Shown piece by piece: positions 58,264 to 61,902 of a stretch of 64,000 bases of DNA (position 1 is the first letter of the stretch; each line of letters opens with the position of its first letter). Under the pieces are notes generated by a model that saw only the letters and a list, made by a program, of their open reading frames with translations, searched no databases and was not told the origin of the DNA. The position numbers and the translations under genes were made by a program. The stretch is from contig CACKIH010000004.1 in the NCBI GenBank assembly GCA_902600225.1, forward strand, positions 24,857-88,856, given 5' to 3'. The stretch comes from an uncultured Alphaproteobacteria bacterium. GTDB taxonomy: Bacteria; Pseudomonadota; Alphaproteobacteria; HIMB59; GCA-002718135.

Positions 58264-58367
58264 TATTTTGGCAGTATTATTAGTTTTTTTTATATATGCA
58301 AATATTGCATACCAATATTCTCTTAAATATTCTTACTAAAATTCAATAATAAACTAATTCATCATCA

Positions 58368-58417
58368 CGTTCATCACTCTTTTAGGGTGACGGAAGTAGA
58401 CGAAAGTCGAAGGAACG
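58368..58417 (+). ncRNA. glnA-type glutamine riboswitch aptamer, copy 1 of the amt-1 tandem
   Basis: CGTTCATCACTCttttaGGGTGACGGAAGTAGACGAAAGTCGAAGGAACG matches the remembered glnA motif consensus (CGUUCA...CGGAAGUAG...CGAAGGAACG); P1 CGTT/AACG, hairpins TCACTC/GGGTGA and GAC/GTC. Confidence 0.88.
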
Positions 58418-58434
58418 CATGCAAAGTTATAAAT

Positions 58435-58484
58435 CGTTCAATTTGCCCTTAGGCAAATCGGAAGTAGGTTAAACCGAAGGAACG
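58435..58484 (+). ncRNA. glnA-type glutamine riboswitch aptamer, copy 2 of the amt-1 tandem
   Basis: CGTTCAATTTGCCcttaGGCAAATCGGAAGTAGGTTAAACCGAAGGAACG; same core with a covarying hairpin. Confidence 0.88.
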
Positions 58485-58577
58485 CGGATCTTAGTAATTA
58501 ATTTCCATAGCTAAGCATGAAAAGTAACACATGACTCAATGTGAGCCATGTACTGTGAAATTTATAATGGAGGATTA

Positions 58578-59864
58578 ATGTTAAAAAAATCTATATATTT
58601 CATTAGCATTATTGCCGTCTTTATGCTCTTTAGTTCATACGCGAGAGCAGAAGTAGACGGTGAAGTGCAATACATTTTAAATACATTCCTATTTCTTGTA
58701 TCTGGGTTCTTAGTCATGTGGATGGCAGCAGGATTTGCAATGCTTGAATCAGGACTTGTAACGTCTAAAAGTGTAGCAACAATAGCTGCAAAAAATATAG
58801 GCTTATATTCTATAGCTGGTTTAATGTTCTGGTTAGTTGGATATAACATGGCATATGGCATTCCTGCAGGTGGCTTTATTGGATCTCCACTTCCTTGGAG
58901 TGATGGTAGTGCTCTAGATACAGGTTATTCAGATGGTTCCGACTGGTTCTTTCAGATGGTATTTTGTGCAACAACTTGCTCAATCGTATCTGGAACACTA
59001 GCTGAAAGAATCAAAATTTGGCCATTTTTTATTTTTTGTGCTTTATTAACTGGTTTCATTTATCCAATCGAAATGGGTTGGCAGTGGGGTGGAGGATACC
59101 TAGCGGAAGCAGGTTTCTCAGATTTTGCTGGCTCAACCCTAGTACATAGTGCAGGAGCAGCAGCAGCACTTGCTGGTGCAATTTTGTTAGGTCCTAGATT
59201 AGGACGTTTTACTGACAGTGGCGAAGCAGCTCCAATGGAGCCTTTTGCAAATTCATCAATTCCTCTTGCAACTTTAGGTGTATTTATTCTATGGCTTGGA
59301 TGGTTCGGATTTAACGGTGGATCACAGTTAGCTATGGGTACATTTGATGATGTAACAGCAGTAGCAACAATATATATTAATACTAACCTGGCAGCTGGTG
59401 CAGGTGTAATGGCTTGTGCTGTTATTTCAAGACTAGTAACGGGTAAAACAGATGTTGTAATGATGCTTAATGGAGCATTAGGCGGTCTTGTAGCAATAAC
59501 TGCAGAACCATTAGCTCCTTCTCCTTTCCTAGCAGTAATCATTGGTGCAATAGGTGGATTAATCGTCTTCTACGGAACAAGACTTTTAATATCTCTTAAA
59601 ATCGATGATGTTGTTGGAGCAATTCCAGTACATGGTTTTGCTGGAATTTTTGGAACATTAGTAGTTCCAATTTCAAACACTGCAGCAAGTTTTGGTGCAC
59701 AACTTTACGGAATTATAGCAATTAACGTTTTCGTTTTTGTTGTATCATTTATTATTTGGTACATCATGAAAATGCTCTTTGGTATTAGAATTAGTGAAGA
59801 AGCTGAAAAACTTGGTACTGATAAATCTGAAGTAGGCGTAATGGCTTACAGCATCAGAGACTAA
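58578..59864 (+). CDS. amt: Ammonium transporter (Amt family), paralog 1
   Basis: RBS GGAGG before ATG 58578; GFLVMWMAAGFAMLESGLV, HSAGAAAALAGAILLGPRLGRF, DDVVGAIPVHGFAGIFGTL. Confidence 0.95.
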   Translation: MLKKSIYFISIIAVFMLFSSYARAEVDGEVQYILNTFLFLVSGFLVMWMAAGFAMLESGLVTSKSVATIAAKNIGLYSIAGLMFWLVGYNMAYGIPAGGFIGSPLPWSDGSALDTGYSDGSDWFFQMVFCATTCSIVSGTLAERIKIWPFFIFCALLTGFIYPIEMGWQWGGGYLAEAGFSDFAGSTLVHSAGAAAALAGAILLGPRLGRFTDSGEAAPMEPFANSSIPLATLGVFILWLGWFGFNGGSQLAMGTFDDVTAVATIYINTNLAAGAGVMACAVISRLVTGKTDVVMMLNGALGGLVAITAEPLAPSPFLAVIIGAIGGLIVFYGTRLLISLKIDDVVGAIPVHGFAGIFGTLVVPISNTAASFGAQLYGIIAINVFVFVVSFIIWYIMKMLFGIRISEEAEKLGTDKSEVGVMAYSIRD

Positions 59865-59868
59865 TGAA

Positions 59869-59934
59869 TTTAGTGATTAGCACATCAACTCCTTATAGTT
59901 GGTCACTAAAAAATGGGAGAGCATCTGCTCTCCC
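59869..59934. other. Two adjacent inverted-repeat structures downstream of amt-1
   Basis: TTTAGTGA...TCACTAAA (59869-76/59903-10) enclosing CAACT/AGTTG; then GGGAGAGC-atct-GCTCTCCC (59915-59934), flanked by A tracts, so a T tract exists only on the minus strand. Confidence 0.7.
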
Positions 59935-59963
59935 AAAAATGCAAATTATTATTGAGATATTTA

Positions 59964-60338
59964 ATGACTGAAACAGAAATAATTAAAGAGAAAAAAAGAA
60001 ACATATATTCTAGCTTCTTTTCAGAAGATTATGTCTCCAAATTTTTATTTAAATCAATTTTGCACCATGTTATCTCTCTTGAAATATATGAAAATAATAA
60101 ATTGAACGGAATTTCATTTGAAACAATTTGCGCAAATATACCTAAGTCAATTGGATCTAGATCATCTATTCAATCTATTTTAAACGAAGCTTTAGAAAAA
60201 AATATTTTTGTTAAAGAACAAAGTAAGTCAGACAAACGAATTAAAAATTATTATTTAAGCAATAATTTTCTCGATATGATTAATACATGGTTAAGAAAAG
60301 AAGGTTCATTTTTTAGTAAAATGAGTTTAGAAAATTAA
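59964..60338 (+). CDS. Uncharacterised protein, possibly winged-helix DNA-binding
   Basis: ORF track starts inside the 59915-59934 hairpin; ATG 59964 (MTETEIIKEKKRN...) more plausible. PKSIGSRSSIQSILNEALEKNIFVKEQSKSDKRIKNYYLS resembles a MarR-like recognition helix/wing. Confidence 0.55.
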   Translation: MTETEIIKEKKRNIYSSFFSEDYVSKFLFKSILHHVISLEIYENNKLNGISFETICANIPKSIGSRSSIQSILNEALEKNIFVKEQSKSDKRIKNYYLSNNFLDMINTWLRKEGSFFSKMSLEN

Positions 60339-60407
60339 TTAGATTTTATTAATTAAATCTAATACTATATCTTGATAGTTTCCAAATTATAGCTATAACT
60401 CAGTTCA

Positions 60408-60457
60408 CGTTCATCACTCTATTGGAGTGACGGAAGTAGACGATAGTCGAAGGAACG
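60408..60457 (+). ncRNA. glnA-type glutamine riboswitch aptamer, copy 1 of the amt-2 tandem
   Basis: CGTTCATCACTCtattgGAGTGACGGAAGTAGACGATAGTCGAAGGAACG. Confidence 0.88.
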
Positions 60458-60474
60458 CATGCAAAGTTATTAAT

Positions 60475-60523
60475 CGTTCAATTTGCAGTTTGCAAATCGG
60501 AAGTAGGTATACCCGAAGGAACG
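60475..60523 (+). ncRNA. glnA-type glutamine riboswitch aptamer, copy 2 of the amt-2 tandem
   Basis: CGTTCAATTTGCAgttTGCAAATCGGAAGTAGGTATACCCGAAGGAACG. Confidence 0.86.
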
Positions 60524-60615
60524 CGGATCTTAGTAATTAATTTCCATAGCTACGCATGATTTAATGCATAACTAAAGGGTAGTTATGTGTTCATAATTTT
60601 ATATGGAGTTCAATA

Positions 60616-61902
60616 ATGTATAAAAAATTTTTTAGTCTTTTTACAATATTCTCTTTTATTTTGTTGCTAAGTTCATCTGTGAGAGCAGAGGTTGACGCTG
60701 AAGTAGCATATATATTTAATACATTTTCATTTCTAGTTTGTGGATTTTTAGTCATGTGGATGGCTGCTGGTTTTCTATTTTTAGAATCAGGTCTTGTTAC
60801 AACCAGAAGTGTATCAACTATTGCTGCTAAAAATATTGGAAAGTTCGCAATAGTTTCAATTGTTTTCTATTTAATAGGATATAATCTTGGATATTCTGTC
60901 CCTGAAGGGGGTTATGTTGGAACACCATCAATATGGACTGATAATACATCTATGGAAACAGGTTATTCAGATGCTTCAGACTGGTTTTTTCAAGCTTTAT
61001 TTGTTTGTGCAACTGTTTCAATTGTATCAGGTGCAGTCGCAGAGCGAATAAAAATTTGGCCTTTCTTTACTTTTGCAGCAGTTCTTGGAGGAGTGATTTA
61101 TCCAATTCAAATGGGTTGGGAATGGGGCGGAGGTTGGTTAGACGCCCTTGGATTTGCAGATTTTGCAGGCTCGACATTAGTTCATGCTTGTGGTGGTTCA
61201 GCTGCTTTAGCTGGCGTAATTCTTTTAGGTCCAAGACTTGGGAGATTTAGCGCAAGTGGTGAACCAGCTAATATGGCCCCATTTGCTCCATCATCAATTC
61301 CATTAGTTACTCTAGGTACATTTATTTTATGGATGGGTTGGTATGGTTTTAATGGCGGGTCACAACTTGCATTAGGTTCTTATGAAGATGCAACAGCAAT
61401 GTCAAAAATTTTCATGAACACTCAACTTGCAGCTTGCGGTGGATGTATGGCTGGCGCAGCAATAACAAGATTGATTGGTGGTAAAACTGATATTGTTATG
61501 ATGCTAAATGGAGCTCTTGCTGGCCTAGTTTCAATAACTGCTGAGCCATTAATGCCTAATCCATTGCTTGCAATTGGAATTGGAGCAGTTGGAGGAATTA
61601 TAATGTATTACGGAACTAACTTCTTAAATTCATTAAAGTTAGACGATGTTGTTGGTGCAATACCTGTACATATGTTTGCTGGAATTTGGGGAACATTAGT
61701 CGTACCTTTAACTAATCCTGATGCATCATATGCAATTCAGTTATTAGGTGTTGCATCAGTATGTATCTTTGTTTTTGTTTTCTCTTATATTGTAATATAT
61801 TTAATTAAAAATATTATGGGATTAAGAATTAGTGAAGAAGCTGAAAAACTTGGAACTGATAAGGCTGAGGTAGGAGTTGTAGCTTATTCAATAAGAGATT
61901 AA
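60616..61902 (+). CDS. amt: Ammonium transporter (Amt family), paralog 2
   Basis: GFLVMWMAAGFLFLESGLV, GGVIYPIQMGWEWGGGWL, HACGGSAALAGVILLGPRLGRF, DDVVGAIPVHMFAGIWGTL. Confidence 0.95.
   Translation: MYKKFFSLFTIFSFILLLSSSVRAEVDAEVAYIFNTFSFLVCGFLVMWMAAGFLFLESGLVTTRSVSTIAAKNIGKFAIVSIVFYLIGYNLGYSVPEGGYVGTPSIWTDNTSMETGYSDASDWFFQALFVCATVSIVSGAVAERIKIWPFFTFAAVLGGVIYPIQMGWEWGGGWLDALGFADFAGSTLVHACGGSAALAGVILLGPRLGRFSASGEPANMAPFAPSSIPLVTLGTFILWMGWYGFNGGSQLALGSYEDATAMSKIFMNTQLAACGGCMAGAAITRLIGGKTDIVMMLNGALAGLVSITAEPLMPNPLLAIGIGAVGGIIMYYGTNFLNSLKLDDVVGAIPVHMFAGIWGTLVVPLTNPDASYAIQLLGVASVCIFVFVFSYIVIYLIKNIMGLRISEEAEKLGTDKAEVGVVAYSIRD

Follow-up and report, generated by a model that had tools for sequence, protein, structure and literature searches.

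Two neighbouring ammonium transporter genes, amt-1 and amt-2, were each preceded by a tandem pair of type-1 glutamine aptamers in the analyzed stretch of 64,000 nt (hereafter the window). Together with the leaders of glnA and of an ATP-grasp gene located elsewhere in the genome, these two leaders make up a small RNA regulon that is predicted to be glutamine-responsive. We consider it probable that tandem type-1 riboswitches, organized as a four-unit regulon and working through a shared translational platform, took over the sensing function of a lost GlnD/PII cascade.

The initial annotation had described two glnA-type copies, 17 nt apart, in the leader of amt-1. Reading of the sequence placed CGTTC...GAACG motifs at 58368-58417 and 58435-58484 with a 17-nt spacer at 58418-58434, and a search with cmscan against all 4227 Rfam families matched these positions. 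RF01739 (Glutamine; gathering score 35 bits) was the sole Rfam family above threshold in the window, where it was detected in four copies, all on the plus strand. Both aptamers of the amt-1 leader scored well above this cut-off, as the annotation had proposed to check: aptamer 1 (58366-58421, P1 CGTTC/GAACG at 58368-58417) with 61.4 bits and an E value of 4e-11 for the whole window, and aptamer 2 (58433-58488, P1 at 58435-58484) with 59.6 bits and an E value of 1.3e-10. Model positions 1-53 were aligned in both copies with zero broken pairs. The tandem leader on amt-1 was therefore correctly recognized, but a second pair before amt-2 had been overlooked (aptamer 1, 60406-60461, 61.3 bits; aptamer 2, 60473-60527, 55.4 bits). 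Judging from the four RF01739 positions, each of the two neighbouring amt genes owns one tandem pair; the window contains two pairs, and the genome four.

P1 and the GGAAGUAG / GAAGGAACG core were intact in all four window copies, and P3 was unbroken except in the fourth copy, where one pair is broken. Across 80 leaders the GGAAGUAG / GAAGGAACG core was near-invariant. The Glutamine-II model (RF01704, Downstream-peptide), which the annotation had also listed for checking, was rejected as the class of these aptamers, since its best match reached only 16.6 bits and thus fell below the cut-off of 33; the window aptamers were accordingly assigned to type-1. These results indicate that the window element is a real tandem glnA-class glutamine riboswitch, with a response to glutamine expected from the aptamer class.

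The source assembly (1.25 Mb, 48 contigs, 75% complete) contained eight aptamers, which formed four pairs with no singles. On contig C45, the third pair occupied the interval between glnB (encoding PII) and glnA; on contig C9, the fourth stood 5' of an ATP-grasp gene that is circularly permuted. All of the aptamers sat in the 5' leaders of nitrogen-metabolism genes. Exactly four pairs were likewise counted in another genome of the genus, which is 96% complete. Among the 103 units read across the fetched loci, a tally in which a few places were read more than once, 92 were tandem (glnA 31, amt-1 23, ATP-grasp 22 and amt-2 16). Of the single-aptamer units, three were distant amt genes of one subclade, and the other eight were ATP-grasp readings that came from four genomes in a different family. 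The subclade (L086, L115, L116) belongs to the window's genus and carries an additional, distant amt of about 30% identity, whose different leader has one glutamine aptamer. In the ATP-grasp leaders (L039 and others), a short reading frame (about 20 codons, M-V-x-K...) begins directly 3' of the platform. In several genomes its stop codon and the start codon of ATP-grasp share bases (TAATG/TGATG), which suggests translational coupling.

The host of the window is probably placed next to HIMB59, in the second AEGEAN-169 clade. The closest sister family presumably includes the genome of strain HIMB59. Genomes of the second AEGEAN-169 clade have been described as carrying no more than two ammonium transporters each (PMC11366302). 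Across the order the aptamer was found in 108 of 163 genomes. All 108 belonged to the window's family, in which only three of the 111 genomes were without it, and it occurred in none of the HIMB59-family genomes listed, 35 match-free genomes of the order not being itemised. One genome of the window's family with zero glutamine aptamers, G539, was 93% complete. Among 395 genomes across the class, one other family was positive, with a single copy 5' of an ATP-grasp gene.

When 85,488 genomes were scanned for the pattern, tandem aptamers also appeared in SAR116, SAR86, SAR92 and one Porticoccaceae genome, among the matches listed. Within these listed matches, the SAR116 units were located 5' of amt and displayed a CATGC-type linker as in the window's genus, and the SAR86 units preceded glnA and other genes. 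At least three SAR86-type loci were aptamer triplets. The triplets of L146, L157 and L212 precede a gene whose putative product is an outer-membrane or porin-like protein, and their third aptamer is set apart by a linker with its own hairpin. In two further SAR86-type loci (L143, L201), tandem glutamine aptamers were located 5' of an apparent TonB-dependent receptor gene.

In Proteobacteria, glutamine is classically sensed by GlnD, which uridylylates PII. PII in turn steers GlnE, which adenylylates glutamine synthetase, and GlnK gates AmtB. The GlnD/GlnE domain PF08335 was identified in 24 of 24 sister-family genomes versus none of the 37 genomes of the window's genus, and the GlnE domain PF03710 in 22 of 24 versus none of 37. 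PF08335 was also absent from the 96%-complete relative of the same genus. With 37 genomes that are 55-89% complete, absence of GlnD and GlnE by chance is not credible. In HIMB59, one protein scored above the TIGR01693 cut-off for GlnD, and glnK is located immediately 5' of amt. The HIMB59 family usually has two PII genes, while the window's genus has one, beside glnA. No PII gene lies beside amt-1 or amt-2 in the window, as had been annotated, and the glnK-amt pair was absent from the genus. An apparent PII gene next to amt in G034, a genome of the same genus, was rejected, as it was a truncated glnB-type ORF near an Amt-like ORF of 697 aa. This 697-aa protein (L261) combines an Amt domain with a long additional region, and may be a sensor fusion.

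The target sites of the cascade also differed. The PII T-loop around the uridylylated tyrosine read TELYRGAEYVVDFLPK in the sister family versus STGGIDPNDGYDDEFLAK in the window's genus, and the adenylylation site of glutamine synthetase read DKNLYDLPPEE in HIMB59 versus DINLYAASDEV in the genus. PII is kept in the genus, with its canonical T-loop eroded. The absence of GlnD and GlnE, the eroded T-loop and the changed adenylylation motif together indicate that the enzymes and their target sites decayed together.

The initial annotation had proposed that RNA-based sensing substitutes for the amtB-glnK arrangement. The comparison with the HIMB59 family, which has glnK-amt, GlnD and GlnE and no aptamer while the genus shows the reverse, favours this proposal, but a PII gene does exist beside glnA. 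The pattern suggests, as a strong hypothesis built on a correlation that may reflect a single branch, that RNA replaced the GlnD/PII cascade, the riboswitch regulon having assumed its glutamine-sensing role. We advance more tentatively the full claim that, in a family of streamlined marine alphaproteobacteria, a four-unit, dual-aptamer, single-platform regulon replaced GlnD, PII, GlnE and GlnK as the sensor for glutamine synthetase and ammonium uptake. The retention of PII itself in the genus counts against such a replacement.

Loss of GlnD and GlnE could also be unrelated to the gain of the riboswitches, if genome streamlining did away with the cascade while the aptamers came from a separate inheritance or acquisition; we regard this as possible but somewhat doubtful. 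The tandem carriers of SAR86 and SAR116 were mixed for GlnD, which was present in some SAR86 genomes and in one SAR116 genome with tandem aptamers. Therefore, GlnD loss is not required for tandem aptamers. Of four genomes from the other alphaproteobacterial family, in which the ATP-grasp aptamer is single, three also had GlnD. NtrY/NtrX-like genes persist in the window's genus (L132), with a weak NtrX activator domain of about 70 bits, and this retention likewise fits separate events. Against them, aptamer and GlnD/GlnE were mutually exclusive between the two families searched within the order. In addition, glnA and amt, which are classically the two targets of the cascade, are among the genes preceded by riboswitches. 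Loss of sigma-54 was discarded as a component of the swap because RpoN was missing in the sister family too and is thus uninformative. Since sigma-54 is absent from both families and NtrY/NtrX-like genes remain, other nitrogen control is possible in the genus. If replacement of the cascade by RNA is true, it represents a clear evolutionary swap from a protein signalling cascade to riboswitches, with the sister family as a natural control. Growth is nitrogen-limited across much of the ocean, and AEGEAN-169, the probable host group, is common at the surface.

All features of the two amt leaders are located on the plus strand. In the amt-1 leader, the 17-nt linker CATGCAAAGTTATAAAT (58418-58434) separates the two aptamers, is conserved in relatives and forms the 5' strand of a predicted linker-platform helix, pairing with 58507-58519. 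The 3' strand of this helix consists of ATAGCT (58507-58512) and GCATG (58515-58519) within the post-aptamer segment GGATCTTAGTAATTAATTTCCATAGCTAAGCATG (58486-58519). On the basis of its conservation, its pairing with the linker and modelled start-codon occlusion, this segment is a possible candidate for the strand that sequesters the Shine-Dalgarno sequence and start codon of amt-1. A predicted hairpin, CATGACTCAATGTGAGCCATG (58530-58550), lies between the platform and the ribosome-binding site; having no U-run, it is not terminator-like. It is followed by the Shine-Dalgarno GGAGG and the ATG (58569-58580, with the ATG at 58578-58580). The gene amt-1 (58578-59864) encodes a 428-aa ammonium transporter of the marine subtype (PF00909, 327.9 bits; TIGR03644, 574 bits). 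The amt-2 leader has the linker CATGCAAAGTTATTAAT (60458-60474), recognized from the sequence and the tally, and a post-aptamer platform segment (60525-60558) with the 3' end GCATG, recognized from sequence and conservation. The gene amt-2 (60616-61902) also encodes a 428-aa transporter of the marine subtype (PF00909, 322.5 bits; TIGR03644, 532.8 bits). The interval between amt-1 and amt-2 contains an ORF of 123-141 aa (59913-60338) that by eye resembles winged-helix regulators, and searches of Pfam and NCBIfam with this ORF gave zero matches.

In the 92 tandem units of relatives, the linker was 16-18 nt long and near-invariant (CATGCAAAGTTATAAAT and close variants), and it stayed fixed even where the aptamer loops varied in length. 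Viral contigs gave no match to this exact linker. The segment 3' of aptamer 2, ...ATTTCCATAGCTAAGCATG (...ATTTCATAACTAGAGCATG in glnA), was as conserved as the linker and complementary to it, CATGC with GCATG and AGTTAT with ATARCT. The resulting helix had 98.4% standard pairs over 61 distinct combinations, and sliding the partner by 1-3 bases reduced this to 11-34%; pairs were tallied on anchored strands by script, since MAFFT placed the glnA linker one base out of register. Compared with shuffled partners, the helix had a mean z of -2.6 to -3.9. Variation comprised A-U to G-U in three CGTGC linkers and, at pair 8, U-G or U-A. All changes were of G-U type or one-sided, and fully compensatory pairs were not observed; this limited variation is therefore consistent with the helix rather than compensatory evidence for it. 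The interval between aptamer 2 and the helix contained a small hairpin with GGAU/AUCC in six leaders and GGAA/UUCC in five, and a mismatch there in 42.

Both aptamers would feed one expression platform that controls translation. When the linker is paired with the post-aptamer segment, the start region would be open, and when it is unpaired, this segment would fold onto the Shine-Dalgarno sequence or the start codon. In the ensemble model, preventing the linker helix changed start-codon openness from 0.76 to 0.02 for glnA, from 0.66 to 0.08 for ATP-grasp, from 0.68 to 0.35 for amt-2 and from 0.85 to 0.60 for amt-1. With shuffled platforms, none of 24 shuffles was as closed as the native glnA sequence, a result common to all eight leaders, while the amt start codon was occluded about as often as in the native one. 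Start-codon occlusion thus has support in glnA and, for the most part, in ATP-grasp; the effect was not significant in the amt leaders. This ensemble test took the place of motif-RBS pairing by duplex energy alone, which gave a mean z of just about -1 to -1.6 and, for ATP-grasp, of 0. A pairing switch between P1 GGAA and UUCC, with only 3-4 bp and weaker in glnA, was discarded by hand.

Physiology predicts that high glutamine would switch amt and glnA off. With moderate confidence, we propose that glutamine represses translation of the downstream genes, a sign that is not readable from secondary structure. It is unlikely that glutamine instead raises downstream expression, as at cyanobacterial gifB. 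Known type-1 and type-2 glutamine riboswitches do activate (PMC6316151), and for amt and ATP-grasp, P1 formation in the model promoted both the linker helix and an open start, which would predict an ON switch. The glnA model, however, favoured the closed state once P1 formed, and more ammonium uptake and glutamine synthetase at high glutamine would make little physiological sense.

The window units look like two aptamers on one platform, a layout resembling that of glycine riboswitches, with homologous aptamers, a short conserved linker and a single downstream platform. A review of tandem riboswitches files 157 glutamine doublets and four triplets as pseudo-cooperative, meaning two complete riboswitches each with its own platform (PMC9481103). 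It is rather improbable that the present pairs are such stacked riboswitches acting alone. The aptamers are merely 17 nt apart, and the linker (16-18 nt) contains no terminator and no ribosome-binding site, which leaves no separate platform for the first aptamer. This linker is also near-fixed across four loci and into SAR116, and pairs with a single downstream segment. The loci offer a defined system for asking whether twin glutamine aptamers cooperate via one platform. Transcription termination by a hairpin 3' of the platform is very unlikely. A hairpin does lie between platform and Shine-Dalgarno in the leaders, and inspection by eye showed U-rich stretches after a small number of divergent glnA leaders, yet just one of 83 leaders combined a strong hairpin with a U-run behind it; intrinsic terminators were thus rejected as the general platform and translational control is more likely.

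Previously, glnA RNAs were linked to genes for PII, glutamine synthetase and ammonium transporters, and tandem copies were noted (Weinberg et al., 2010, PMC2864571). A 2018 review considered glutamine riboswitches to be restricted to cyanobacteria, with amt and glnA associations only from environmental sequences (PMC6316151). Since tandem glutamine riboswitches and the link to amt are already published (PMC9481103; PMC2864571), the element is of a known kind. What is new is its genomic context, namely the lineage and a regulon mirroring the lost cascade, together with the apparent dual-aptamer single-platform layout. The published work searched, with the subscription literature largely outside it and hence weak as evidence, reported neither glutamine riboswitches in this lineage, nor an exclusive relation to GlnD/GlnE/GlnK, nor a shared linker-platform helix.

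Compared with the type-1 glutamine riboswitch (RF01739), the aptamer sequence, the P1-P2-P3 structure at 55-68 bits and the location in nitrogen-gene leaders are the same, while the host is proteobacterial, the targets are assigned in defined lineages and the linker-platform architecture is added. The doublets of PMC9481103 also have two RF01739 aptamers 5' of one ORF, but the present units differ in their near-fixed 17-nt linker and in having no first platform. The tandem glycine riboswitch shares two homologous aptamers, a short linker and one expression platform; its ligand and aptamer are different, and the likeness is one of layout. The cyanobacterial gifB riboswitch belongs to the same aptamer class, and its hosts are likewise without known glutamine-sensing enzymes (PMC6316151). 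However, it is an ON switch on a glutamine-synthetase inhibitor, whereas the targets here are amt and glnA. Finally, the GlnD-PII-GlnE and GlnK-AmtB cascade has the same input, glutamine, and the same targets, glutamine synthetase and Amt, that are predicted here, but it acts by covalent protein modification, in place of which the window's genus has RNA leaders.
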